Positions 3,333 to 53,619 of a DNA stretch of 64,000 bases are shown piece by piece; position 1 is the stretch's first letter; each line of letters starts with the position of its first letter. The DNA lies in NCBI RefSeq assembly GCF_028583425.1, contig NC_072790.1, positions 213,630,897 through 213,694,896 of the forward strand, in the 5' to 3' direction. The notes beneath the pieces were generated by a model. It had not been told where the DNA came from, did not search any database, and was given only the letters and a program-made list of their open reading frames with translations. This stretch comes from Eublepharis macularius. Lineage: Eukaryota > Chordata > Lepidosauria > Squamata > Eublepharidae. The translations under genes and the position numbers were made by a program.

Positions 3333-3793
3333 TTTTGTTACGAATCACATCTGTTCCAATGACTAAACCGGGGCAGACGGATACCAAGGCCGCGTCCAAC
3401 AGGGACCCTTTGTTTGATCCTTATACCTCCCTTGGTTCGGAAGGACTAGGACCTCCATGACCCGTTCAGGAAGGAACGGAGTCCAGGCGTACTGCGCTGT
3501 ATACCCTCGCACCTGATAGAGCTGAAACTAGGCCCAGGGCGGCAGCAGAACCTCTGATATCCCTGCCTACGCCGAGGCAGTGGGGTTCGAGGCCAAGAGA
3601 CACGAGGGAAAGGAGAGTGACTGCGGTATTTACTAAGTCGCAAATGGAAGTGTCGGCTCGATAGCAGAGCATTCAAGTAGCCAACCGTGGTATCACTGGA
3701 ATCGAGAAGGCGACCAATTAGAGTGGGACCGAAGAGGTTCGGAAAGTACCCAGGTGTGAGAAACCTCCCGTCGCGACGTGATGAGTAGGGACT

Positions 3794-6495
3794 ATGCGGA
3801 AGTTACCCCATGGACGGGGCAACGCGAGCCGACTGAACAAAGTTGGGTACAATTACAGAGTCGTCTCCTCCACAAACGCCTATCCCATACCTCTCATCAG
3901 AGATCTACTCAACATCGTGGCCCAAGGTAAGATCTTCACAAAATTGGACTTAAAAGATGCTTATTTCCACGTTCGTATACAAGAGGGGGATGAGTGGAAA
4001 ACCGCGTTCAATATGCCCTTAGGGCAGTACGAATATTTAGTTATGCCTTTTGGCTTGGCCGGGGCCCCTTCGGTTTTCATGTCCATGATCAATGAAGTAT
4101 TACACGAATTTTTATATAAAGAAGTAGTTGTTTACCTGGATGATGTGTTAATTTACTCAGAAACCGAAGAAGAACATGTACACTTAGTGCAACGAGTATT
4201 AACTACTCTCATGTGCAATAAATTGCCCATCAAATTGTCTAAATGTGAATTTCACAAAACTGAACTTAGTTACTTGGGATATTGCATCTCAAAAGATGGG
4301 TTAAAAATGGATCCCGGCAACGTGAAAGCAGTTCAAGACTGGCAAACCCCCACAAATTGTAAAGAACTGCAATCCTTTCTGGGGTTTGCCAATTTCTATA
4401 GAGAATTTATACAAACTTTGCCCAAATAACTCTCCCCCTCACAGAACTCTTAAAAACTAAAGACAAAGGGGAGCAAGCTAAAAAACCAAAAGCAAAATTA
4501 TTATGGACACCGCAATGCCAATTAGCCTTTGATCGGTTAAAGCAGCAATTCATATCCGAACCAGTGCTGCAACACCCCGATGAAAATCGCCCATTCATAG
4601 TACAGATGGACGCCAGCGATACTGCAATTGGGGGCGTCCTCCTGCAGCAGGGGACAGACAATATTCTCAGACCTTGTGCATACCTTTCACGTAAATTTTC
4701 TGAAGCCGAAAGAAATTGGAATGTTTGGGAAAAGGAAGCTTTTGCTGTAAAAGCGGTGCTCTCCACTTGGAGACATTGGCTGGAAGGGGCCCGCCATCCT
4801 TTTGAGGTTTGGACAGATCACAAAAATTTAGAAGCGTTATGCAGTCCTCGGAGACTCAATGCCAAACAATTAAGATGGGCGGAATACTTTTCAAAATTCA
4901 ATTTCACCCTCAAATTCTTACCTGGCAAAACTAATTTCCTAGAGGACGCCCTCTCACGCATGCCCCAACTCAAAAGCAGGAGGGAGGATACAATAGACAC
5001 AGTATTTTCGCCTACCCAACTGGGGTGTGTGGTTACTATGTGCAGCCGCACAACACACCCTCCTCACTCAGACCAGGGGTGGAGACGAAAACTGAAAAGT
5101 GAAGTCGAAAAGGAGGGGGAGAATGTGCCCAAAGAGAAATTAATTCAATCTGAACAAGGGGAATGGCTTTGGGGTGATCGATTTTATGTACCAAATAGTT
5201 TAAGAAAAGAAGTACTGCAACGCTGTCATGATGCCCCAACAGCTGGTCATTACGGATATTTAAAAACCCTTCATCTGGTCCAAAGACAATTTTGGTGGCC
5301 AGGCATGCGCAAAGACATTTCGCAATATGTAGCTTCGTGTCCCATTTGCCTCAGCGCCAAAACGCAAAAAGCCAAACCTCCTGGACTTTTACAGCCCCTT
5401 GAAACTCCAAGTAGACTGTGGGAAATTATTTCTATGGATTTCATCACAGATCTTCCCCCCTCCAAAAATCATACCTGCATTTTAGTTGTAGTGGATCTAT
5501 TTTCAAAACAAGCCCACTTCATTCCCTGCACTACTATGCCTTCGGCAAAAAGGTTGGCGGATATTTTTCTGAAATATATTGTAAAACTCCATTCTTTTCC
5601 ATCAAAGGTAATATCCGACCGAGGCGGACAATTCATTGCCAACTTCTGGCGGGAGCTTATGCAACTTATGGGAATTGAACAAGGTTTAAGCTCCGTCCAT
5701 CATCCGCAAACCGTCGGACAGTCGGAAAAAACTAATCAATTATTAGAACAGTTTCTCCGTTGCTACATCAATTTCCAGCAGGACAATTGGATTGATTTAT
5801 TGCCTTTAGCAGAATTTTCTTACAACAACAGTGTGCATGCGTCTACTGGAGAAACACCATTCAAAGTAGTTTATGGCTATCACTTTAAACCATTTCCTTT
5901 TGAAGCTCTTCCCCCCGCAACAGCCTCCAATGACGTTTCAGGATGGTGGGGGGAGGCAGCTCAACAATGGTCTCTCATTCAACAACATCTTAACAAAGCT
6001 AAACTGGACTATAAGAAATACGCTGATCGCCATTGTGCGGCCGAATGGGAATTGCATCCAGGAGACCTTGTTTATTTGTCTACAAAAAATTTGAAAGTCG
6101 CTCAAACCAGCCGTAAATTGGCACTAAAGTATTTGGGACCTTTTCCAGTTCATAAAATCATCAACAAAGTGACTGTAGCACTTGATTTACCAAAGAACCT
6201 CCGTCACGTCCATCCTACTTTCCACATCAGCTTGTTGAAAAGGGTCCCCCCAGCAGATCAATGGCATACCCGTGCTCCTCCCATACCAACCTTGATTGAT
6301 GACCAAATCCATTATGAAGTGCAACAAATTTTGGACTCTAAAATCAAACGTAATAAGCTGTTTTACCTCATCAGATGGAAGGACTTTGATTCTGGTTTTG
6401 ATGAATGGGTGGAGGCTATTCATGTTCATGCTCCTAGATTGGTAAAATCTTTTCACAATCTCTACCCTCTCAAACCTGGGGGAAGGACATTTTAG
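3794..6495 (+). pseudogene. pol region of the Ty3/gypsy fossil
   Basis: This region would encode the polyprotein that copies and integrates the element. Reverse transcriptase is recognised by the YLDD block, then RNase H (DASDTAIGGVLLQQ-type start), the integrase zinc-binding and catalytic core (MDFITDLP, SDRGGQF), and a chromodomain near the end (FYLIRWKDFDS). The order RT, RNase H, integrase is that of Ty3/gypsy rather than Ty1/copia. It is a fossil and does not read through as one product. Confidence 0.9.
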
Positions 6496-18219: not shown

Positions 18220-18644
18220 CAGGGGTCATTTCGTAGAAAAAGAGCTGGAGGAACTCATCAGCATAACTCATTAGCATAACATTAGCATATGCCATGCCCC
18301 TTGACATCACCGGAAATGTGTCATTGGTATAACTGATTTGCATATGCCACACCCCTTGACATCACCTATCCTGGCCATTCAGGGCCGAAATTGGGCCCAA
18401 AATGGCAAAAAGGGGCTGAAAATGGCCGAAAGAGGGCCCAAAATGGTCAGGATCAGGCCGCTGCTGAGCAGGAGAGTGATCCACCATCTGTCAGAGGCCC
18501 GATCCGGGCCATTTTGGCCCCAATCCAGCATGAAATGGGCCCAAAATGACAGAGAGTCAGCTGGGCGGGGCCACCTGACATGTGACCTCTTTGGGGAACT
18601 GCCGGAACTGTGTTCCTGTGCGTTCCCCCTCGAAATGAGCCCTG
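18220..18644. mobile_element. hAT-type MITE inserted in the CATA array
   Basis: Inverted ends CAGGGGTCATTTCG and CGAAATGAGCCCTG delimit 425 bp. CATACATA lies on both sides, consistent with an 8 bp duplication, although the microsatellite context makes that ambiguous. No transposase frame. Confidence 0.8.
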
Positions 18645-18723
18645 CATACATACATACCTCAAGCACAAGGACTCCAAACGTGCTATGAAAGTTCTTTTCA
18701 GGCAAAATCTGGATCCCATCCTA

Positions 18724-18742
18724 GGCCGATTCCACACTACCT
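18724..18742 (+). repeat. Left terminal inverted repeat of Harbinger element
   Basis: GGCCGATTCCACACTACC matches the inverse of the right end with one difference in 18. The CTA just before it is repeated after the right end. Confidence 0.85.
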
Positions 18743-19136
18743 TAGCTCCCGCTTTTCTTGTGCACTGATTGCTCCATCTGCTATTGCGCGTTCTTTGCTT
18801 GTTTGTTCACATCACCTTTAGAATAGCGCTTATCCTGCGCAATCCGTTGATCACATCCCCTTTCAAAAATACGGGTAAAGGGGCGGGACAAAACCAAAAG
18901 GCCCGGGTTATTTTTTTTTTTTTAAAAAAGGCAAATTTGACGCTATATCGACGTGTAATTATCTTGAAACAACGAATCCGCGTTCCCTTCCTTCCCTGTC
19001 ATTGGTCAGTTTTCGGACCAGCCTCTTAAAAGGTTATTGGATCCCCGTGGAGGCGCCAAAATTTGAACAGCTTTAAAATTGGACTGATAGTCATTCCTGT
19101 CTCTGTGGGAGTTACAGGTGACTTGGAGAGGGTAGG

Positions 19137-20726
19137 ATGGCACCCCGGGAAACGATCATTTTTCTGATGGCTCATGTCCTTCTGATTATGCTCCGCTGCT
19201 CGACATTCATGTGCCTTTCCTATAAAAGGTACATCTGCAGGAGGAGACGTGCGGCTGCCAGATTGCTATTTTTCAGAAACCGGCACTCCGCTTACCGCCG
19301 CTACCTTCGTGCACCACCTAGAAACAGGTTTCGGCGATGGTTTGCCTTGGCAGAACTTGAAGAGCCACGGGAGCACTGGGTTTACCCACGAAGCCTCCAC
19401 TGGTGGGATGCCATCGTTTTGGGCTACTGGGATGATCATTGTTGGATGGAGCGTTTCCGAATGTCCAAGCAAACATTTCTTGAGTTGGTGGAGGCTCTAC
19501 GGCCACGTCTCGAACGTCAAACCACCACCATGCGTGTGCCATTATCCGTGGAGAGGAGAGTCGCCGTAGCGGTGTGGTACCTCGCCAACGGGTCAAGCTA
19601 TCAGGTGGCGAGCGACTTGTTTGGCATCGGACGGTCCACGGTCGCATCCTCGGTAATAGAGTTCTGCTTTGCTGTGGAACTAGAACTTCTCTCGAAAACA
19701 ATATGCATTGGTCCCGACGTTGGAAAGGTAGGTTGCACTGTGGAAAATTTTTTTTTTTGTAATGTGATGTCGTCCTTCCGACTTATCATTGTGCCAAAAT
19801 CATATCAGTTGCTTTTATTTGACCATCCAAAAAATGTCTAGGTTCTGACTGGACAACTAGGAATCTCACACTTGCGCATTGATGTGCCTTACGCTGACAG
19901 ATGCCCGTGAGCGTGGATATAATCTTGAATAACAATCACCTAAACTTCTGTGAGTGCTGTTTGAGTAACCCCAAAACATGTCTGATTAATTTATTTTCCT
20001 TTTTCGAAACAGATAATGGATGGCTTCGATCGCCTTGGATTTCCGCACTGCATAGGCGCTATAGATGGCACCCACATTCCCATTTGCGCTCCGGGGGGAA
20101 GGCCCGATCAATATGGGAATCGGAAGAACTATTCATCCATTCTTCTTCAAGGAACTGTAGACTCATCAGGACGCTTCATCGACGTGGAGGTAGGGTGGAG
20201 TGGGAAAAATCATGATGCCTTTGTCTTTACCCACTCCGCCCTCTGTATTGCCATGGATGCCGGCTCCCTGGTTCCTGGGAACCCTTGCCTGGATTTGGAT
20301 GGTGTGGTGGTTCCACCGATCATCATTGCGGATGGTGCCTACCCCTTGCGTCCCTGGCTGATGAAGCCATACGGCCGGACAGCAGAAGCGGGACATCACC
20401 GAGACTTTGATAGGAGACTTTGCAGGGCTCGCAACAAGGTGGAATGTTGTTTTGGTCGTTATAAGGGGAGATGGCGTTGTTTGTCCAGGCGTCTGCAGGT
20501 CAGAGAACAAAATGTGGTCTCTGTTGTCACTGCTTGTGCTGTCCTACATAACTTGTGTGAGGAAAGGGGTCATCCGGTGTTGGGTGACCTGGAATCACCA
20601 GAACCCATTCGCATACAGGCTGATGAGGATGATGACATGGCCACAAATGGTGAGAATCTCGCAGCAGGAAAGGTAGTGCGGGAGGCCTTGGCAAGGTTCA
20701 TGGCCGCCGCAGGATCAAGAGAGTAG
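19137..20726 (+). CDS. PIF/Harbinger transposase, two exons
   Basis: This would encode the DDE transposase that cuts and rejoins the element; its host-domesticated relative is HARBI1. Exon 1 is 19137-19727 and ends GGAAAG/GTAGGT. Exon 2 is 20013-20726 after ...CGAAACAG. The intron is in phase 0, giving 434 residues against about 350 for HARBI1. An Arg-rich N-terminus and a helix-turn-helix-like region (RVAVAVWYLANGSSYQVASD, about residues 139-158) precede the catalytic domain. The triad is visible as GAIDGTHIPI (D215), IIADGAYPL (D304) and RNKVECCFG (E341). The start has a good context (A at -3, G at +4). AATAAA follows near 20831. No stop or frameshift interrupts it, so it may be functional. 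Confidence 0.92.
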
Positions 20727-21527
20727 AGCTTACCATGCCACCAATGGATGTTTCAGAAATCCGATTGTGGTGGTCCTTTAAACGATTTTTTATTATTATC
20801 CTGTCACGAGCCCTTGCTGTGTTGGCTCAAAAATAAACCAAAAATATGTTTTTGGATCTCATTGTTGAACTGTTTTCTTTCTCCTGATCTAAAATAAAAA
20901 AATACACATCATCACAAGACCAGTGAACAATCAATAAATAAAACAAATCAGAAAACCATTATATTCCTCTTGCAAACAATTTAGTGCTCCACACATTGCC
21001 CTTTCCATTTTTAAAAAAAATATTGCAATCTTGCCCAGTCGATGTTGTTGTTCGTGGAGGTGCATCCTGGAGATCATGGACACTCAAAATCACACTCACC
21101 GGCACACAGATGGCCCTGTCTCTGAACAACCAATTCTGCTCCGGAATGTGCATAGTGGACTCATACACAGCTAATCTGTTCACCCCGCGTTGGTTTAAGT
21201 CCTTCCCAGTGATGGTCTACAGGCTATTGTGTGGTCATTTCTCAGGGAACCTTACAAGGGTTATCACCCAACCCTCACGTCACTCATTAATATGTTAAAA
21301 AAAAAATTCTTATCACTTGACACTGTCATTCCCATTGTCCACTTAATGCTTTCGTGGGTACAGCCGGGAAGCAAAGAGCGCGGGGTGGACACGGGTCCAT
21401 TTAATAAAAAAAACGCCTCTAAGCCTCCGTCGTTAAGATTCTCCCGCGCAAATAACGGGCGCGTGTAGCCGCCGATCATGCGCGTTGAAGATTCATTACT
21501 GTGTCGACATACCGTCTCATTGAAATC
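20727..21527 (+). promoter_or_regulatory. Intergenic region between transposase and Myb-like gene
   Basis: It holds the transposase 3' end with AATAAA signals near 20831 and 20890. The stretch before 21528 is CpG-rich (for example CGCGCAAATAACGGGCGCG near 21447) and is the likely promoter of the downstream gene. No TATA box is assigned. Overlapping short frames here look like noise. Confidence 0.4.
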
Positions 21528-24165
21528 ATGGCTTCAGGCGGGAAAGGTGTCTTTTGGAGGGACGACGAGGTCCGTGCCCTGCTTAACCTGGTGCTCAGCT
21601 CGGGAAAGGCAGGAATCCTCATGAAGAGCACCCACCTTCCCAACAGGCAGCACTTCAGTCGGGTAGCCACTCGTATGCGTGAGGCCGGCTTTGAGAGGAA
21701 CACCGAACAATGCCGGTCCAAGTTTAAGCGCGTCAAGGGGGCTTTCTACGATGCCTTGGAGTCCTGGCAAGGGATTCCAAGGCAGAGTGGGAAGCCCCCC
21801 TTTTTTGCCGAAATGATGAGGCTCTGGGAGGCAGCAGGGAAACCCAGCTGGAGGAACCGATATCATGGTGGTGAGTTGAGGTCTCGATGATAAAATTATG
21901 CCTATGACAATTATGCTTGTGTTTTGATTTTGAATTTTTTTCAAGGACATTGAGCTGAGGAATTGGTGAGTGGTGGTCCAAAAACCGCAGATCTTGGACA
22001 TTGTTCACTGCTGTGCCTGACCACCCTAGAAGCGGGTGTATGCTTGTGCTTTTTTAACAATACCGAACCCTGTTTGAATGGCCAAACCGCCCCATGATAG
22101 CTCCCCATGGACAGGATGTTCAAGCCAAATTTGTTTCTCAAAACATCGATACTGTAGGACAATAGAATTCACATTTGCAGACCACTCCACATAACCTCAT
22201 GCATGCGTGGATTGGGGAAAAGCATTTGCTGGGGTGTCAGTAAAGTTTTGATAGTATGATTACAAGGTTTTCATAGAGGCCATTTTATAAAAAAAGATAT
22301 TTTCCTGATTTCCACAGCTGCTCTTAGGAGGAGAGATGAGCCGATGAGTCAACCTGAGGAGCCAGAGGGGGAAGCCTCCGATGAGATGGAGCACGCCAGT
22401 GCGGCAGGCTCCTCCCCTGTGAGCAACGTGGTGCACCAGGAGTTGGCACATGCAGGTGGGTGTCATGAGGAGTATCATTGCATTATGCAGCATCTAAATA
22501 GCCATTCCCCTCCACCCACTTTGGGTGATGCCATCCAAGTGTCAAGAACATTCTGCGCCAAAGGCTGCCCTGGCATGATGTCAGGTGGCAGATTCTTTCA
22601 GTTTTGCATTCTCCACAGACCAACATCACCTGCAACGTGACCATTTTCCAATTTAAAGGAAAGTTTAGAGCAGACATGAGTTATCGAAAAGGTGACATCT
22701 TAGTGGTCTGCGGGCCAAGCTACACATGACGAATGACACTTGAATGGCAAGTGTATTTCTCCCTGTTCACTTGCCCTCCACTCAAACCACTCGCCATTCA
22801 AGTGTCATTCGTCATGTGTAGCTTGGCCCTGTGAAGCAACCTCATCCAAAGCATCACAGCACCGTGGTCCAAACAAGTGCTTACCGTCCACCATTCATAG
22901 ATTCAAAAGACTGTTTCTTACAGTAAACATTGGTGTGACCACATTTTCCTGCACCGTCAAGACCGAGAATTTTTAAGGATGGCCCAAGTTTTCTCAAATC
23001 GTACTTCTCATAGTTAGATGCATGGTGTGCCAAAAAGATAAGGGCATGATATTGTAGTTTACAGAGGTGTTAATCTACTCTGCCATAACCTCTCCAGCTC
23101 AATATCAGAGTTTTTTCTCTTTTTACCACCATGCAACAAACTAAGAGAATTGTGATTCTCGAATGTGCACTCCACAATTTTATCACTTTGAACCCAAGGG
23201 CGCTTCCAGGATAAATGTTTATTGCTCCCAGGGTTAAACACCGCAAAATCATGTGGATTTCACCGATTTGTGAATCAGGAAACTTTTGTCATTGCTGTGA
23301 TAATGGAAATTGACTGTTTGTCCATCCAAATGCAACTGTAAACGCAATTTGAACGGCAGCATTGGATCTCTTCACAGGAATCCAAACGCTGGCATTTGAA
23401 TTCACAGGTTTTTTTCCCCCGGGCGCCCCTTCCTGGCACACACACACTGATGATATCTTGCTCTATGTAGATCACCTTCAAATTAATCCCTCCTGTTTAA
23501 ATTTTTTTCTCTAACCACGAAGGAGCCTCTCCAGACCTATATGGTCACCTATCCATACATGGATTATCTCAAAATCTTAAACTGGTTTCAGACCCTCTGC
23601 GTTAGAAACATGCATGGCAACACTGGAGTGCGTGTCTCAAACTGTGTTCTCATATCTTGACTCACTTGAACCTTAATACAGAATTTTCTTTTAAATTTGG
23701 AAAACAATGTTTCATTTCTGATTGGCCATCAAGATGATGGTTAGATAACACCCTTAAAAATGATATGTTTTTCTATTGTGACAGAGGAGGTTGGGGATCG
23801 TCCGGGTACATCGGATTCAACTCAAGCGGCTCCATCCACCAGTACAGCGCCAGAGACCGCCCCCCGCCGCCAGGGAAGAACTCTTGATGACCTATTTGCC
23901 TTGGTGGAGAGCATGGATGGGCGCACCTCTGCATCACGTGGGTTCAACTCTATAAATGTGCTTTGGAGAGCAGCCACAGTAAACAATGCAACCGCCTAAA
24001 AAATTCTTGTTCTGTTTAGTCAACAGCATCCAGAGACGTATGGCCACATACGAGGGTCGTATGATGCGCTTTGGCCGGAGGCTGGACAACATCGAAAGGA
24101 GGCAACGGGAGATGGAAGAATCCAGCTTGTCAGCCAGGGAAGCTCATGGCCAACAAAATCAGTAA
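21528..24165 (+). CDS. SANT/Myb-like (trihelix) Harbinger partner protein, four exons
   Basis: Likely the DNA-binding partner that Harbinger elements encode beside the transposase. Exons are 21528-21870, 22318-22455, 23785-23937 and 24020-24165. All junctions are GT/AG and phase 1, giving 259 residues. Residues 1-114 form a Myb/SANT-like trihelix domain: FWRDDEVRALLNLVL, then HFSRVATRMREAGFERNTEQCRSKFKRVKGAFYDALE, then PFFAEMMRLWEA. The middle is acidic and Ser/Thr/Pro-rich. The last exon (IQRRMATYEGRMMRFGRRLDNIERRQREMEE) is probably a coiled coil. The second start at 21501 in the same frame is less likely, because 21528 has A at -3 and G at +4. AATAAA lies at 24223. The reading frame is intact across all joins. 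Confidence 0.85.
22712..22829. mobile_element. Small palindromic MITE in Myb-like gene intron 2
   Basis: Ends GGGCCAAGCTACACATGACG and its inverse at 22810-22829 extend as about 40 bp arms around a 35-40 bp centre. It lies wholly inside the intron. No clear target duplication is seen. A relative sits at 25638-25835. Confidence 0.75.
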
Positions 24166-24403
24166 TTGTTGCCCTGGCATGAGGCATCAATCTTTCCCAC
24201 CCCTTGAGTTTCTCTTTAGTTTCAATAAATCAAGAACTGTTAACGTTACCATTTGTCCCCTTGTTTATTGATGTCTTGGCCGTCAGGAGTAAAACAAGTA
24301 GTGGCATTGAAAAACACTCCAATGTAATACAAACAACAGTGTAACAGTGAAAATGGGGAAACGGGACCGTTAATTCAAACGGAAACATCTTAGTCCAGTA
24401 ATG

Positions 24404-26746
24404 CTAAAGAGTCAGCCTTTCACGAGCCCTTCCAACGCATGCACGTTTTGCCGTGGCAGACCTAGGTGGGATGTTTTCTGAGTTGCTGTCACCCTTTTCA
24501 CAAGCATTTGCTGACCTTCCCCGGTGCTGACTCACCAACATTTCCCCAAGTGTTTGGAGAGTGGTTACTGCAGATTCCATTACATGCAGATTCTGCATCC
24601 ACACATCCCTAAAATCATTTCTTTCCTTCCTGGTCTCCTCTAGGAACTCGACTTGCAACCTCCTTTCTTCTTCATGCCATTTGTTGCTATCCTTGCGGTC
24701 TATGCGCCATTCATTGATCTGTGCCTTGTGCTCTTCCCCTGACTGACTCATCATCTTGTCCGCCACAGAAAACAGGCCAGCATTTCTTCTTCTTCTGGAT
24801 CTAATGGCTGATAGGCGTGTGCCAGGTGATAGCTCCGCCACTGATTTCAAAGGTGATTCTGTGAATTGATAAAAAGCCAAAAAAACATCAAAAAACAAAC
24901 ATAATCCAGAGCATGACATTGACTTTTCTGCACAGTTATTGTCCCTTGAGTGATCAATCAACAGAATCTCGTGTGCAGTCCCATGCTGAGGATTTTTTTT
25001 TGGTCTCCTGCTGAGAATCAACACTCCTTGCCATGTTTAACAGACATGGTTTTTACATCTATGCCCTGGGGGGAGAAAAAACCTGTACAGTTGACGTTTT
25101 TTGCCTGATGTTACCCAAGGATTCAATCAATGTGAAGCTGATGTGAGGGTGCTGTTCATTTGGTCCATAGTTCCGGCCAAGAAACTTTGGTGACTTCCCT
25201 TTTGACTCAAGCCAAAATTGGTACCAAGGGGACCCACCACCCCCCAAAACACACAATGACGTTAACATGACACTGCTGCCGGGGTTACATATCACGTCGC
25301 CAAGTTTAATTTAGCTTTATCTGCAGAAACAAATTTGAAAATTTGGTGAACAAACTCTTACTGATGGTAAACCATAGAGATGCTATGCGATTGCTAGCCC
25401 TTTATTTCGTTACCGAGAAAACATACCTTTGCTGCTGCCAAGACCAGATGTGCTGGAGCTGTTGTTGCTAATTGTTTCCTCTTGACCGTCAGGACACGGA
25501 TCATCAGACTCTAGAAATAAAGGAGAGGTTTTCACAGATTTAATTGTGAGTTAAGTGGGTGGATTTGATGTCCTGGCATAAAACCAATTCCTGGCAGGAT
25601 ACAGAAGTTCACACAAACACAGGAAGGAAGTGGCTTAGGGTGAAGCTGCAAGCGACGCCTGACACAGGGCGGACACTTGTCCGCTTCCCTCAATTTCTGA
25701 TGGGAACTGTAGGTATCCTGGTCTTGCAGCTGCATTGGAGAGACAAGCGCTAAATCAAGGAAGCCCACTTCTCCCATCAAAAGTTTAGCAAGGCTAACAA
25801 GTTTGCAACCTGTCAGGCATCACTTGTAGCTTGGGTCTCAGGCTCTGCAATTTTCACAAATGAAACAAAGCACAGTTTCTCAAACATTGAAAACATAACG
25901 TGTTTTCCTGAACACGTGGTCCAAACATGGATCCAATTGTGTTGAAGTGGTGTCCCATATCCTCACGATTCTAGACTCCAGCTGTCTTTTCACCACGATA
26001 GATCAAAGAACACCTGCAACTAGATATAACTAATCAAGGTTAAAGGGTTAATCACTGCAATATATGGATGTTTTCCTATGAAACTCATCAAACTCACCTT
26101 TGTCTTCAAGGCCATCCACAGTGGCATCAGTGTCAATCTCTGCCTCAACCTCAGGTACATTCTCTCTCACACCTGTGTCAATTGAAAGAATGTCATGATA
26201 TTACTTCATGCGTCTCTATAATGAGCACTTTTCAAACCTCCACAGTAAAAGTGGTTTTCACTCACCCACTTGGCATGGAGTGGAGCTTCTAATCTGTCCA
26301 TGATCTATGGTGAAGAGGTCGTGCGAAAAAAGCTCCTCCGAGCCATCAGACACTGGACACGGGTCTCTCAATTGCCGCCCCAGGGACACAACGCCAAGAC
26401 TTCTTGACACTCGTTTTGGTTTCACGCTTGCATCCCCCCGGAGAATGCTGTCAAGCTCCCTGAAATACGGGCAGGTAATGGGAGCATTTCCAGAGGTTGA
26501 ATTGTGCGCCACTACCTTCTTGTAATCCAGTCTCATCGTTTTTGTTTTTGACCTGCACTCCATAGCTGTCCTTTTATGTCCCCGAAGGGCCATCTGGGCT
26601 GCAATGCGCTCGAAATAATCGATATTTCTATAGGAACTCTTCAGTGCTTCCTGTATTTTTTCCTCCCCCCAGAAGGAGAGGAGATCCAATATTTCCCTCT
26701 CCCTCCAAGCAATTCCACGGGAGGCGGCATGCCTATGTTCGCTCAT
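24404..26746 (-). CDS. Second SANT/Myb-like gene of the Harbinger element
   Basis: A minus-strand gene, tail to tail with the plus-strand Myb-like gene. Exon 1 is 26746-26266, exon 2 26172-26098, and the last exon 24858-24404. All joins are GT/AG and phase 1, giving about 336 residues. Residues 10-105 are a Myb/SANT-like trihelix: IAWREREILDLLSFWG, FERIAAQMALRGHKRTAMEC, then CPYFRELDSILRGD. The last exon has a basic patch (RSRRRRNAGLF) and a long charged helix with heptad character (KWHEEERRLQVEFLEETRKE), likely a coiled coil. An optional exon at 25511-25427 has good splice signals, but including it from phase 1 puts a stop in frame. The first and last exons join in frame without it. It may be a second DNA-binding partner or cargo; its role is unknown. 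Confidence 0.75.
25638..25835. mobile_element. MITE-like element in an intron of the second Myb-like gene
   Basis: GGGTGAAGCTGCAAGCGACG at the left matches the inverse of TCACTTGTAGCTTGGGTC at the right, and GCCTGACA/TGTCAGGC extends the arms. The ends resemble those of 22712-22829, so both belong to one family. Confidence 0.55.
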
Positions 26747-27553
26747 CTCGACAATTTTGAAAATACCTGACCTGAACTCCTGAGATCTCGTTCTAAGTGC
26801 TAGAACAGATTTATAGCTGAGGCTCCGTGCTCCGCTGCAGAATGTCTGTCAATAAAATGCTACCACATGCATTGGATCATGGGAAAGGATGGGAAAGTTT
26901 CCGCGGGAAGTAACGGTCAAGAAATGGCATGCCGCATGCGCGAGTTTGGACAGCAAGGATTGAATTAACGCCAATCCGAAACAGCGGTTCAATGGAACAA
27001 CGACGACATTAGTGTTAATGTTAAAGGCATTCCAAGTGCACGTCAACGATGAACGCCAGTGAATGAAATCAACATGGGATGGGTGATCGGTCATGATGAC
27101 CGGCCACATCATCCAAAGGCAGAGCTTGATTTTCTCTTTTGAAACTTGACCGCGGTGCCAAGTCCAGTGGCACAGGCCATTTCAAGCGTATCAAAAGCCA
27201 TGAATGAGGTGTCACGAGGATGTCTAATAAACAGAGCTCATTGTTCCTCTGATATCGGAGGTCTGTCCGTTAAATTGATATGAGAACAATATGATGAGAT
27301 GTCGACATATCGACACGGTAGTCTTTTATTTTTTAAAAAAGGGGTTGGAAAAAAGGCAGGGCAGGGAATTTGGGGGCGGATCAAGAGAGGGTGGGAAACC
27401 AAATGGGGCCGTTTATTCATAACAAGATAAACCGGAATGAAAGTGCAATGGGCTGTTGCGACGCGATGCCGGTTTAATGACGTCATGGGAGATGAGTGTG
27501 TGAACCGATTAAAGTATGGCGCTGCAGAAGTGAAAAACTGCCGCAAGAAGAAC
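26747..27553 (-). promoter_or_regulatory. Right subterminal region of the Harbinger element
   Basis: About 0.8 kb between the minus-strand gene start and the right terminal repeat, CpG-bearing and without a credible long frame. It should contain the promoter of the minus-strand gene and the transposase-binding subterminal sites. A GTCGACATATCGACAC palindromic motif lies at 27301-27316, and a similar ATATCGACGTG is at 18945-18955 near the other end. Confidence 0.4.
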
Positions 27554-27571
27554 GGTAGTGTGGATTCGGCC
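27553..27571 (-). repeat. Right terminal inverted repeat of Harbinger element
   Basis: Read on the minus strand it is GGCCGAATCCACACTACCG, matching the left end over 17 of 18 bases. CTA follows at 27572-27574. Confidence 0.85.
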
Positions 27572-27574
27572 CTA

Positions 27575-43708: not shown

Positions 43709-45295
43709 GTAACCCTAAGTGTTCTTTTTTTTTTTGAAAATTTTTATTTTTTAATATCTAAAACAGAAAGCTACAAAAAACTACGAAAGTACAAGGGAAG
43801 GAAAAAAGGGAGAAAAAAAGAAAAAGGGAAGGGGGGTGGAAAAAGGGGGAAGGCAACATACAAACAATAAACACTACACTTCAATGCTTTCCCTTCATAC
43901 TGCCATAATTAAAGATTAAACCTTAATAAAGTAATGATGGAGTGGTTGACCTTACAAAATACAAATTACAGTTCAAATTAAGTCTTCTTCCCTCCCCCTA
44001 GGCCTCGGACGCAGTTCTCTCTGAGCAGCTACAGCCGCAGCGCTCGTTGCCTCCCCCCTCCCTTCAGGCTTCGGATCTTCTTCTTTTTGCTTGGTGTCTT
44101 GCCCAAATTCTTGATTTTTGTCCACAAAATCCCTTAGCTGATCTTCCAAATTTATCTTGTAAGCTTGATCTTTGTAACTGAACCAAATTCCTTCCGGAAA
44201 TAGCCATTTATACTTTATCCCACGTTCCCTCAGGAGAGCTGCCAGCCTTTTATACTTAAATCTTCTTTTCCGAACTAGAAATGGAACGTCCTTCAGTATC
44301 TTGACTTTATTTCCCAGAAAGTCCAAGTCCGCATTATATGAGTTGTATAGGATAGTGTCCCGGACCCTCCTAGATGAAAACTCAATAAAGATCTCGCGAG
44401 GCAGCTGCCGCTTTGTTGCATATTTTAAAGAAGCCCGACGGACTTCCAAAATGGCGCTTTTTACTTCTTCTTTAGTTGCCCTCGCGGGTGTCGCCAATAA
44501 TTCCGAGGCAAGATCCCTTAGATCCTCGTTTTCCTCCTCTTTAACATTCTGGAGGCGCAAAATAGTCTGTGTTCGTTCCACTTGCAGCCCGATCAGCTGG
44601 TTTTCCACCAACTTTAGCTCCTTGTTCATTGCTCTCATGAGTGACGCATTTTCCCGAGCAGACTTCTCTGCCCCCCCCGCTACTTCCTTGATGGCTTTCA
44701 CATCGCTCTCAATTAAGCCCACCCTTTGATCTGTTTCATTCAGCTTGTCAACAAAGGGTTTTATGGCTTCGATAACCGACCTTTTCACCAAATCCTCGAG
44801 CGACTCCCCTCTTCCCTGCAGGGCAGCCAAAATTGACTTGCCCAAAACAGGACTCTGCTTTTTCGCTGCCATTTTAGGGGGGGGGACCGCCAACCTTCCG
44901 AAACTCAGCGAGGGGAAAGAAATCCAAGTCTTCTTAACTTCAGATCCCACCACTCCTTCACATGCGCTTGTAATAACAGAAGGGATTTGCTTACTTACAG
45001 GCTTCCGCCTAGTCCTGTTCTTTGCTGTTTTCCGTGGCCCGGCAGCACGCAAGGTGCCGCGCACGTCTGCCGGCCTCCATGGGGACAAATGGGCAATTTA
45101 CCCCCTGCATCGATTTCCAGGGGGCTCTTCCCGCTGCGTCCTGGACCCTGACTCCCTCCCTGGGAGTCCTGGGGGCTAATCTTTGCAGATCAGCCGCCCA
45201 GTCAGGCTGCTCGGGCGCTTCCTCTCGGACCTGCGGAGAGGAGCGTCCGACATGGCCGCGAAAACAAAACCGAGTCCGTAACCCTAAGTGTTCTT
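43709..45295 (-). mobile_element. ORF1-only L1 derivative (HAL1-like) with target duplication
   Basis: The insertion 43727-45277 (1,551 bp, read on the minus strand) is flanked by perfect 18 bp copies of GTAACCCTAAGTGTTCTT at 43709-43726 and 45278-45295. It has a CpG-rich 5' leader, an intact ORF1 and about 245 bp of 3' sequence with a pyrimidine-rich tract. An AATAAA signal (43743-43748) and a poly(A) run of at least nine bases end it. No ORF2 or reverse transcriptase is present. The complete duplication and tail show that the RNA was integrated in this form, rather than an L1 losing ORF2 afterwards. Mobilisation would need enzymes from a full L1. Confidence 0.88.
43973..45088 (-). CDS. L1 ORF1-type RNA-binding protein
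   Basis: ORF1 proteins form trimers that coat L1 RNA and act as nucleic-acid chaperones. From the first ATG this frame is 371 residues, a usual size for vertebrate ORF1p. A second good start at 44872 (MAAKKQSP, residue 73) would give 299. Residues about 115-172 form a coiled coil (MRAMNKELKLVENQLIGLQV). Then comes the RRM-like domain (about 174-270: LRLQNVKEEE, LPREIFIEFSSRRVRDTIL) and the C-terminal domain (about 272-320: VRKRRFKYKRLAALLRERGI, WLFPEGIWFSY). An Arg/Glu-rich tail follows. There is no internal stop. The next frame, ORF2, is absent. A short upstream frame begins at 45253. Confidence 0.9.
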   Translation of the reverse strand: MSPWRPADVRGTLRAAGPRKTAKNRTRRKPVSKQIPSVITSACEGVVGSEVKKTWISFPSLSFGRLAVPPPKMAAKKQSPVLGKSILAALQGRGESLEDLVKRSVIEAIKPFVDKLNETDQRVGLIESDVKAIKEVAGGAEKSARENASLMRAMNKELKLVENQLIGLQVERTQTILRLQNVKEEENEDLRDLASELLATPARATKEEVKSAILEVRRASLKYATKRQLPREIFIEFSSRRVRDTILYNSYNADLDFLGNKVKILKDVPFLVRKRRFKYKRLAALLRERGIKYKWLFPEGIWFSYKDQAYKINLEDQLRDFVDKNQEFGQDTKQKEEDPKPEGRGEATSAAAVAAQRELRPRPRGREEDLI

Positions 45296-49329: not shown

Positions 49330-49770
49330 GTCAGTACTAGGGGTGTGCAAGCCAAAAATTTTCGGCTATAGCCGAAAGTAGAAAGCCGAAAGAAGATTCT
49401 CTATCGTTAAAGCCGAAAGCCGAAACAAGAATCTCTTTCGGCTTTCGACTTTCGGGATTCTTTCGGCATTATTTCGGCATTCTTTCGGCTTTTTTCTATG
49501 GGAAAATGCCTCCGTCTTCCAGGACGCCTGGAGGAGGCATTTTCCCACCAAATAAGCCCAAAATTGGTGGGGACCTTCCACTAACCCTTCTCTAACAACC
49601 ACCCAAGTTTCAGACAGATTGGACTTTGGGGGGCCATGTTATGGCCCCCCAAAGCAGGTCCCCCCATCCTCCCATAAGAAAGCGAAGGAGCAGCATATTG
49701 TTAGCATGCTGCTGCTGATCTTTCTTCATTATTTCCTATGGGGAAAAAATGAAGAGGCAGGCTTCCTTTG

Positions 49771-50270
49771 CCAGGGGTGGCATTTTGCATGCAAAATGCC
49801 CCCCAGCCCTCAGGGGCCCTTCTCCCACCCCTCCTCCCACCCCCCACCAAGGCTCAGCCTGCTCCCACTTGGGGGGGCCATTTCATGGCCTCCCCAAGTA
49901 GGTGCTCTAATCTCTACCACTGACAGCTGGGGGAGGCTTGTGTTGCCAGGGGTGGCATTTTGCATGCAAAATGCCCCCAACCCTCTGGGGCCCTTCTCCC
50001 ATCCCTCCTCCCACCCCCCACCAAGGCTCAGCCTGCTCCCACTTGGGGGGGCATTTCATGGCCTCCCCAAGTAGGTGCTCTGCTCTCATCTCTACCACTG
50101 ACAGCTGGGGGAGGCTTGTGTTGCCAGGGGTGGCATTTTGCATGCAAAATGCCCCCCAGCCCTCTGGGGCCCTTCTCCCACCCTTCCTCCCACCGCCCAC
50201 CAAGGCTCAGACTGCTCCCACTTGGGGGGGGGCATTTCATGGCATCCCCAAGTAGGTCCTCTCAGCCCCT
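49771..50270 (+). repeat. Three-copy 175-178 bp repeat, left arm
   Basis: CCAGGGGTGG begins units at 49771, 49946 and 50124. Each unit holds the perfect palindrome GCATTTTGCATGCAAAATGC and GC-rich flanks. Confidence 0.88.
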
Positions 50271-50780
50271 AAAGTCCACCCCTTACAGCCCCACACAAAC
50301 CCAATTCCCCCCCAGCTGCCACACACAGACCCAAATCCCCACATTAGCCCCCCACAGACCCAAATCCACCCCCACCTGCCCTACACCCATAACCCCAGGA
50401 ACAGGCTGGCAAAGGCCAGCCCTCTCCCTTTGTTCCCTATGCTGGGAACTTCTAAACTCTCTTTCCCTGGGCAATTCTGCACAGCCCAGGGGTGCCACAA
50501 TGGTGGGCACACTTCTGAGTGCCAGCTGGTCCCTGTGAAAGAGCACCTGAACCACAGACACCCTCCCTCAAATTCCCCCACCACCTACAGAGATGGCTGG
50601 CCAGCCAGCCCCATTGTTCCCTATGATGGGAACCAACTGCACAACAAAGAATAAAACAAGAACAACACAAAATAAAGTTTTAAAAAAATTATTTTCTCCC
50701 TTCCAAAGTACAAGTAGGCAAAGCATTATGACACATTACACCAGCAGTCCCCCACACAGAAAAATTAAAACAAAACTCAC

Positions 50781-52679: not shown

Positions 52680-53179
52680 CCTACTTGGGGATGCCATGAA
52701 ATGCCCCCCCCCCAAGTGGGAGCAGTCTGAGCCTTGGTGGGGGGTGGGAGGAAGGGTGGGAGAAGGGCCCCAGAGGGCTGGGGGGCATTTTGCATGCAAA
52801 ATGCCACCCCTGGCAACACAAGCCTCCCCCAGCTGTCAGTGGTAGAGATAAGAGCAGAGCACCTACTTGGGGAGGCCATGAAATGCCCCCCCAAGTGGGA
52901 GCAGGCTGAGCCTTGGTGGGGGGTGGGAGGAGGGGTGGGAGAAGGGCCCCAGAGGGTTGGGGGGCATTTTGCATGCAAAATGCCACCCCTGGCAACACAA
53001 GCCTCCCCCAGCTGTCAGTGGTAGAGATTAGAGCACCTACTTGGGGAGGCCATGAAATGGCCCCCCCAAGTGGGAGCAGGCTGAGCCTTGGTGGGGGGTG
53101 GGAGGAGGGGTGGGAGAAGGGCCCCTGAGGGCTGGGGGGCATTTTGCATGCAAAATGCCACCCCTGGCAAAGGAAGCCT
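52680..53179 (-). repeat. Three-copy 175-178 bp repeat, right arm (inverted)
   Basis: Mirror image of 49771-50270, again with three copies of the GCATTTTGCATGCAAAATGC palindrome. Confidence 0.88.
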
Positions 53180-53619
53180 GCCTCTTCATTTTTTCCCCAT
53201 AGGAAATAATGAAGAAAGATCAGCAGCAGCATGCTAACAATATGCTGCTCCTTCGCTTTCTTATGGGAGGATGGGGGGACCTGCTTTGGGGGGCCATAAC
53301 ATGGCCCCCCAAAGTCCAATCTGTCTGAAACTTGGGTGGTTGTTAGAGAAGGGTTAGAGGAAGGTCCCCACCAATTTTGGGCTTATTCGGTGGGAAAATG
53401 CCTCCTCCAGGCGTCCTGGAAGACGGAGGCATTTTCCCATAGAAAAGCCGAAAGAAAGCCGAAAGAATCCCGAAACGTTTCGGCTTTTTTCTTTCGGCTA
53501 CCCGAAACGTTTCGGCATTCCCCGAAACGTTTCGGCATTCCCCGAAAGAAGCCAAAACACTTTTGTTTCGGCATTCTTTCGGCATTCTGAATGCCGAAAC
53601 GCACATCCCTAGTCAGTAC

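Follow-up and report, generated by a model that had tools for sequence, protein, structure and literature searches.

Gene content and structure of the element

A 64,000-nucleotide stretch of contig NC_072790.1 of Eublepharis macularius (the window) contains a transposon of the Harbinger superfamily that carries three genes, one coding for a transposase (gene 1) and two coding for different Myb-like proteins on the plus strand (gene 2) and on the minus strand (gene 3). This 8.8-kb unit, which is defined by its ends, has moved as a whole, and very recently. The coordinates of its features are given in Table 1.

The gene 1 product has 434 amino acids, encoded across the 19727/20013 intron, and includes the Pfam domain DDE_Tnp_4 (PF13359, E=2.6e-31). 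Genes 2 and 3, both with four exons, code for proteins of 259 and 364 amino acids with the Myb/SANT-like domain PF13837 (E=1.1e-11 and 1.3e-15, respectively), and the two proteins share 23% identity over 194 positions (E=4e-8). A previous analysis of the letters alone (the sequence-only reading) had proposed inverted ends of 18 bp with CTA on both sides, a transposase with an intact DDE triad, two different spliced Myb-like genes and retention of CpG dinucleotides, and all these features were confirmed: 17 of the 18 terminal positions are paired, the flanks are CTA and CTA, the residues D215, D304 and E341 are present, both Myb-like proteins carry PF13837, and the observed/expected CpG ratio is 0.62 within the element versus 0.19 and 0.18 in two 10-kb flanks. 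The claim that the reading frames hold across their splice sites stood for the junctions of genes 1 and 2, but the proposed gene 3 junction 26098/24858 skipped an in-frame exon of 84 nt (25510-25427). Gene 3 has been modelled with four exons and 364 amino acids because this exon, once translated, was matched in all five other copies searched (one each of families B, D and E and two of family C, described below); a separate DNA match to it, at 78-82%, was found in the two family C copies.

A search of the Protein Data Bank with the gene 2 protein retrieved two GT-1 chains (E=0.00047 and 0.0012), and the same two chains were weakly matched by the gene 3 protein (E=0.04 and 0.075), together with two chance matches; the transposase gave one chance match only. 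Viral contigs searched with transposase exon 2 yielded 7 pattern matches, none of them confirmed. Intron 2 of gene 2 includes a 118-bp hairpin (22712-22829) with 42-nt arms that are 98% complementary, which recurs in the other 11 family A copies and in the family B copy L020 and is possibly a small fold-back insertion. The CpG-retaining segment that best fitted the region from 8 to 45 kb, calculated without using the ends, was 18386-27567, with its right edge 4 bp from the end of the terminal inverted repeat (TIR) and its left edge 338 bp outside the left TIR. A CpG-rich stretch (18386-18723) immediately outside the left end extends this segment by those 338 bp.

Table 1. Features of the three-gene transposon, with positions in the window.
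Feature	Position	Strand	Evidence or remarks
Whole transposon, 8,848 bp	18724..27571	.	Ends common to 12 copies, 98.8-100% identity, unrelated flanks
Left target-site duplication, CTA	18721..18723	.	Flank comparison of copies
Left TIR	18724..18741	+	17/18 matching; conserved in families A-E
TCACATC copy 1	18807..18813	+	Subterminal
TCACATC copy 2	18851..18857	+	Equal distance from end in A, C8, C6, D and E
Palindrome copy 1, consensus TCGRYATRYCGA	18940..18951	.	2 mismatches; left subterminal, 185 bp upstream of gene 1
Gene 1 (transposase) exon 1	19137..19727	+	Open reading frame, Pfam, exon matches in other copies
Gene 1 (transposase) exon 2, with stop; D215, D304, E341	20013..20726	+	Open reading frame, Pfam
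Palindrome copy 2	21504..21515	.	1 mismatch; 12 bp upstream of gene 2 ATG
Gene 2 exon 1, with Myb/SANT domain	21528..21870	+	Myb-like; probably the additional gene
Gene 2 exon 2	22318..22455	+	Matched in other copies
Gene 2 exon 3	23785..23937	+	Matched in other copies
Gene 2 exon 4, with stop	24020..24165	+	Matched in other copies
Gene 3 exon 4, with stop; C-terminal region	24404..24858	-	Matched in other copies
Gene 3 exon 3, 84 nt	25427..25510	-	In frame, AG/GT borders; tblastn match in 5/5 other copies searched
Gene 3 exon 2	26098..26172	-	In E a 13-residue match, E=0.004
Gene 3 exon 1, with Myb/SANT domain	26266..26746	-	Resembles Myb of compact family F1
Palindrome copy 3	27302..27313	.	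0 mismatches; right subterminal, ~550 bp upstream of gene 3
GTGTGAA near right end	27498..27504	.	73-74 bp from end in A, C8, C6 and E, not D
Right TIR	27554..27571	-	17/18 matching; conserved in families A-E
Right target-site duplication, CTA	27572..27574	.	Flank comparison of copies

Near-identical copies in the host genome

The host genome (2.24 Gb, 72 contigs) was searched with different parts of the element, each search scoring the best 40 or 150 among 387-1648 candidates, so that the counts given here are lower bounds and absence from a list carries little weight. At least 12 copies with transposase regions 99-100% identical, including the one in the window, constitute family A, and gene 3 adjoins all 12. 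The 11 other copies, which were read whole, had 8,848-8,850 bp, the same ends and 98.8-100% identity over their full length, with 0-100 substitutions in 8.8 kb when compared to the window copy; in one of them (L018) the outermost left bases were altered. All three frames were open in the 12 copies. A perfect 3-bp duplication was found in 11 of the 12 (CTA, TAG, CTG, TTG, TAA, TTA, AAG, CAG, CAT, CAT and TTA), and that of the remaining copy (L016) was imperfect (TTG/CAG).

The 24 flanks of 300 bp from the 12 copies had no match in common (blastn, 1e-3). The copy L009 (G000:C1:213.36M), located 290 kb from the window copy, showed zero differences with it in 8,848 bp, and because the sequences are identical while the duplications (TAG versus CTA) and the flanks differ, both are considered separate and very recent insertions. 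A near neighbour at an unrelated site is as expected of local hopping. An origin of the family A copies by segmental duplication was rejected on the same grounds, the unmatched flanks and the TAG duplication of the identical copy.

Diverged families and selection on the three genes

Four additional families share the outer ends of the element: B (L020), C (L021 and L022; copies C6 and C8), D (L023) and E (L024); the shortest of these copies, with 8,810 bp, is that of E and the longest, with 10,279 bp, that of D. Identity to the window was 94% in the transposase region for L020, and in matching DNA about 80% for C and about 70-78% for D and E, the coding DNA of families A to E having diverged to about 71-75%. 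The target duplications were perfect in C6, C8, D and E (AAC, ATT, TTA and CAT) and imperfect in B (CTC/CTG), so that 15 of the 17 copies read (12 A, B, two C, D and E) had a perfect 3-bp duplication. All ten exons were matched in the same order in the five diverged copies, and the match was weakest for exon 2 of gene 3 in family E (E=0.004). Six family B copies with almost equal scores were located in G000 (C1:1.96M, 2.33M, 2.48M, 243.45M and 243.60M, and C28:0.13M), forming two clusters on contig C1 (at about 2 Mb and at 243 Mb of 255 Mb) plus the start of C28, which looks like duplicated DNA.

Between A and C8, the ratios of nonsynonymous to synonymous substitution rates (dN/dS) were 0.089, 0.181 and 0.147 for genes 1, 2 and 3, respectively, and dN between A and E was 0.156, 0.297 and 0.235. 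No stop was found in the parts read of C8 and E; C6 and D have stops or frameshifts. Within family A, comparison of gene 1 from ten copies (L010-L019) with the window copy revealed 20 synonymous and 1 nonsynonymous differences, some of them common to several copies, and the differences in genes 2 and 3 were too few to judge.

The sequence-only reading had proposed a genome-wide search for several copies with the same ends and all three genes, and the three genes were present in all 17 full-length copies read (12 A, 1 B, 2 C, 1 D and 1 E). It had also pointed to same-ended copies lacking the minus-strand gene, or to that gene bounded by its own repeats, as signs of a separate insertion; neither was seen in the full-length copies, but short derivatives that lack all the genes do exist. 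The occurrence of the A copies in unrelated flanks, the recurrence of the ten exons in order and the dN/dS values argue that the minus-strand gene is not a separate insertion. A second element nested around gene 3 was rejected as a candidate, with no repeats of its own recognised among the 25 of 41 inverted pairs listed and its exons conserved across the A-E copies.

The gene trio in other Harbinger families

The pairing of the three genes was analyzed in 37 transposase loci of the best 40 list, three fragments with part of exon 1 (C1:143.48M, C13:43.69M and C1:112.02M) having been left out beforehand. Protein matches to both gene 2 and gene 3 were located within 25 kb in 35 of these loci; in the two others gene 3 was found by other searches, with gene 2 unconfirmed at one of them (C1:26.90M). 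In families A-E, 47 of 50 gene 3 matches had gene 2 within 25 kb, and 47 of 49 gene 2 matches had gene 3. Protein searches with exon 1, in which the best 150 of 1,288 (gene 2) and of 1,436 (gene 3) candidates were scored, revealed relatives outside families A-C with identities of 60-73% for gene 2-like and 66-78% for gene 3-like proteins. Among the best 150 gene 3 matches, 71 had a gene 2 match within 25 kb, 51 in the convergent layout of the window and 20 divergent, and 19 of the 20 divergent pairs were separated by 0.95-1.22 kb from start to start.

The single copy read of family F2 (L051) encodes a transposase (59% identity, exon 2), gene 2 (50%) and gene 3 (62%) in the gene order of the window, and the single copy read of family F3 (transposase at C1:42.68M; L052 and L053) includes gene 2 (63%) and gene 3 (64%) in divergent orientation, so that at least two gene orders exist. 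The two-Myb trio is therefore a property of several Harbinger families of this genome and not of one odd subfamily.

Family F1 (L031-L050, L054 and L055) is organized as a compact divergent pair of genes coding for a transposase about 39-43% identical to that of the window and a PF13837 protein, and a 7.3-kb read around one of its copies revealed no second Myb gene. Gene 3 matches were obtained at 20 of 20 F1 loci (32-39%) and gene 2 matches at 3 of 20 (24-32%); at a more sensitive setting, the F1 Myb protein showed 37% identity to gene 3 (E=5e-22) and 28% to gene 2 (E=3e-8). In the F1 region L034, an antisense open frame of 480 amino acids overlaps the transposase frame, probably as a by-product of GC-rich coding DNA. 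Families F1-F3 are represented by many equal-scoring copies, at least tens, and with so many such copies of several families there seems to have been a broad recent expansion of Harbinger elements in the genome.

A tree of 13 Myb domains, unrooted and with long branches, was constructed leaving out gene 3 of D and both B Mybs. The six gene 2 sequences, from six families, formed one group (100/100), and the five gene 3 sequences, from five families, were placed with two F1 sequences on the opposite side; 7 of the 10 inner forks were open. The stretch that we take to be the recognition helix, from its presumed position within Myb domains, has different sequences in genes 2 and 3 but is conserved in each of the two lineages. 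These results support two old Myb lineages, but given an unrooted tree with long branches and 7 of 10 forks open, they only suggest that gene 3 was the original partner of the transposase. Gene 3 is similar to the only Myb found in the compact family F1, and the extra gene is therefore probably gene 2 and not the minus-strand gene 3.

Subterminal motifs and gene-less derivatives

Conserved subterminal signals were obtained from the aligned ends of A, C, D and E. The motif TCACATC, with C-rich flanks, occurs in two left copies in A and E, 84 and 128 bp inside the element. In addition, the 12-bp palindrome TCGRYATRYCGA was located at three corresponding places, within the left end, shortly ahead of the gene 2 ATG and within the right end, with 0, 0 and 0 mismatches in E, 2, 1 and 0 in A and B, 1, 1 and 2 in C8, and 1, 2 and 1 in C6. 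Family E has zero other sites within one mismatch of the palindrome, and shuffling gave, per element, 0.0-0.02 exact sites, 0.05-0.13 sites with one mismatch and 1.7-2.1 with two, the values for A and E being 0.0 exact and 0.05-0.07 one-mismatch sites. The half-sites are CGG/CCG in E and CGA/TCG at the right end of A, the symmetry being retained through paired changes. The positions and symmetry of the palindrome suggest a possible link between end recognition and self-regulation of the element.

Among the left-end matches (best 40 of 387 candidates), 20 adjoin family A or B transposases, and the other 20 have no transposase, gene 2 or gene 3 match nearby. Three of the latter were read (L028, L029 and L030) and turned out to be 0.95-kb derivatives that retain 368 bp from the left end plus about 508 bp from the right end, with none of the genes and with both end palindromes kept at 1-2 mismatches. 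The flanks are common to all three derivatives, which are one insertion amplified inside another repeat. Their interpretation as a family of miniature inverted-repeat transposable elements was rejected, the three sharing short flanks and riding in a larger repeat, and because they are carried in this way they are uninformative on independent mobilisation.

Role of the second Myb-like gene

The element is likely a young cut-and-paste transposon of the PHIS (Harbinger) superfamily whose autonomous unit consists of the three genes, with gene 2 acting as a second, non-redundant DNA-binding partner. By analogy with the superfamily, the DDE transposase encoded by gene 1 would cut at the GGCC...GGCC ends and rejoin the element leaving a staggered target copy of 3 bp. 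Gene 3, from its similarity to the Myb of the compact family F1, would code for the classical partner that delivers the transposase to the nucleus and to subterminal DNA. Gene 2 would act on the ends and promoters of the element itself, where it would be either a regulator or a subunit of the recognition complex, two roles that the data do not separate. The palindrome would be consistent with a dimer of one Myb-like protein that both marks the ends and controls the promoters of the element. The core of the sequence-only reading, in which the second Myb-like gene is an added partner or cargo, was supported: the three genes form one transposing unit with one Myb gene more than the textbook Harbinger, and the added one is probably gene 2.

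A more far-reaching extension of this reading is put forward tentatively and is rather doubtful. It would place the element in a Harbinger branch with two ancient, non-redundant Myb/SANT proteins, one being the transposase partner and the other reading a palindromic operator that is repeated at an internal promoter and close to each end; complex assembly and the switching of the genes on or off would then be one event, and the trio would be co-inherited across families in which the gene order has been shuffled.

Several observations weigh against the proposed three-gene unit and its palindrome. Among the diverged copies, the transposase of the B copy L020 is broken, and the comparison of A with E gives dS values that are saturated or about 2.5. 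In the family A copy L019, the nonsynonymous to synonymous differences with the window were 0:6 for gene 1, 5:1 for gene 2 and 3:1 for gene 3, and because nonsynonymous differences exceed synonymous ones in both Myb genes, this copy counts against strong recent constraint on them. In the protein searches, 79 of the best 150 gene 3 matches lacked gene 2 within 25 kb and 78 of the best 150 gene 2 matches lacked gene 3, which may or may not reflect absence. The assignment of gene 3 as the canonical partner depends on one compact family type and on the unrooted, long-branched tree. Concerning the palindrome, the consensus was derived post hoc from A and E, gene 1 of C6 contains an additional one-mismatch site, and two-mismatch sites elsewhere in the elements are about as frequent as in shuffles, so that, with 1.7-2.1 such sites per shuffled element, the two-mismatch copies carry weight only by position. 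Since D retains only the gene 2 site, and no site better than two mismatches was found in F2 and F3, the palindrome can be attributed at most to families A, B, C and E.

The alternative that retains most weight, with appreciable probability although short of an even chance, is that gene 2 is a regulator only, which would repress or activate the element promoters or counter host silencing and so tune the copy number. In favour of this explanation, copies of the palindrome are located in the window 12 bp ahead of the gene 2 ATG and also upstream of the two other genes, families B, C and E have counterparts of them, and the divergent Mybs of the second gene order, with 19 of 20 pairs about 1 kb apart, could share a promoter. 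However, the palindrome is also present near both ends, where proteins that bind for excision are expected, and it therefore does not separate a regulator from a role in transposition. The retention of both end palindromes in the 0.95-kb derivatives also speaks against a purely regulatory function, although the three that were read ride in another repeat.

Redundancy, in which either Myb-like protein could serve as partner of the transposase, is improbable: the common PF13837 domain and the significant similarity of both proteins are compatible with duplicated genes, but gene 2 (six families) and gene 3 (five families) belong to separate lineages with different putative recognition-helix sequences. 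A slightly lower probability is assigned to a passenger gene that hitchhikes with no role for the element, an explanation in agreement with the excess of nonsynonymous differences in both Myb genes of L019 but not with the gene 2 dN/dS of 0.18 between A and C8, its 60-73% identity across other families or its proximity to 47 of 50 gene 3 matches in A-E. A composite origin, by which a two-gene Harbinger with transposase and gene 2 would have been invaded by a separate Myb-carrying element, is very improbable in spite of the opposite strands of the two Myb genes and the distance of only about 240 bp between their coding ends, because the same trio, order and outer ends occur in A-E copies with coding DNA diverged to about 71-75% and the same order in one F2 copy, a repeat pair bounding gene 3 was not recognised among 25 of the 41 inverted pairs listed, and no full-length copy with these ends lacked gene 3 among the copies read (17 of the 20 left-end matches without a gene match nearby being unread).

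Other features of the window

Outside the transposon, long open frames on the plus strand at 3785-6495 resemble by eye the reverse transcriptase, integrase and chromodomain of a Gypsy-type long terminal repeat retrotransposon, and a 374-amino acid open frame on the minus strand at 43973-45097 resembles, also by eye, a LINE-1-type ORF1 protein. Two near-identical frames on opposite strands (49556-50538 and 52681-53382), with internal tandem repetition, appear to be an inverted pair of a tandem-like repeat.

Classification and comparison with known systems

The element is a member of the Harbinger superfamily (PHIS) outside the strict PIF/Harbinger group, its transposase having been compared with families of the same genome only. 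The features of the PHIS/Harbinger superfamily in the broad Repbase sense are present: a DDE_Tnp_4 transposase with the DDE triad, TIRs, and a target duplication of 3 bp, within the 0-3 bp allowed, that is perfect in 15 of 17 copies. In the 15 perfect duplications the middle base is always A or T (NWN). The PIF/Harbinger group sensu Han et al. 2015 is defined by a TWA duplication, found here in 4 of 15 cases (TAA and three TTA), by a second gene with a Myb/SANT domain, of which the element has two, and for the most part by two open reading frames, compared to three genes in all 17 full-length copies read. The CWG duplication of Nuwa I was found in 2 of 15 cases (CTG and CAG), and the TNA flanked by C and G of Nuwa II did not describe these sites, with TNA in 4 of 15; membership of Nuwa II through a 5-bp CCTAG reading of the window's CTA flanks was rejected, as the other copies do not follow CTNAG. 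ISL2EU elements have an AT duplication and a YqaJ exonuclease gene, whereas the duplications here are of 3 bp and Pfam lists no YqaJ in the three proteins, and Spy elements have a single open reading frame and zero target duplication, versus three genes and 3 bp. The target duplications fit none of these named groups, and the element is filed as PHIS and not as strict PIF/Harbinger.

Harbingers have been described as two-gene elements (PMC9179366, PMC9710019, PMC4482050, PMC8437027), and, according to one of these accounts, two is the number of genes in every known PIF element of plants and animals (PMC9710019). A survey of 380 families reports two open reading frames for most, not all, autonomous PIF/Harbinger, Nuwa, Pangu and ISL2EU candidates, and average lengths of 3.5-4.8 kb in four groups (PMC4482050). 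The Myb-like partner is described as binding the transposase, importing it into the nucleus and binding subterminal DNA (PMC9179366; PMC9710019), and both Harbinger transposases and Myb-type proteins are reported as co-opted host genes (PMC9710019). No Harbinger with two Myb genes was found in the openly licensed literature searched, Repbase consensus sequences lying outside that search.

A lineage with two conserved Mybs may split the jobs that one protein does elsewhere, which would allow nuclear import, end binding and self-regulation to be studied separately for each gene. The at least 12 near-identical copies with open frames are natural material for such work, and the three palindromes offer a concrete candidate site. 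The element also raises the possibility that, where reptile genomes have Myb/SANT genes annotated beside HARBI1-like ones, the former are second genes of transposons.

With the PIF/Harbinger group (Harbinger3_DR, Ping/Pong and teleost Harbingers) the element shares the DDE_Tnp_4 transposase, the Myb/SANT protein, short TIRs starting with G and the 3-bp duplication, but that group is described with two genes versus three here, an average of about 4.1 kb versus 8.8-10.3 kb, and TWA versus NWN (PMC4482050). Nuwa I and II have in common with it a transposase plus Myb/SANT protein and GG at the start of the TIR, and differ by mostly having two open reading frames and by duplications given as CWG for Nuwa I and most likely TNA inside CTNAG for Nuwa II, the latter being reported from one turtle among 12 species (PMC4482050). 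Harbinger-Snek of sea kraits is, by its description, a similar case of recent Harbinger expansion with intact copies in a reptile, but it is described as encoding two proteins and as most similar to sequences from sea urchin (PMC8437027). An added gene is also reported in the TET+ PHISTA Harbingers of rust fungi and in the oomycete HarbingerS with a SET gene; there, however, the addition is a TET/JBP dioxygenase or a SET methyltransferase, the PHISTA duplication is the 2-bp TA, and the third proteins of the TET+ families are all presented, in that account, as lacking a Myb/SANT domain (PMC12730594). Family F1 of the same genome shares with the window element DDE_Tnp_4 and PF13837, and differs in being a compact, divergent gene pair in which one Myb was found.

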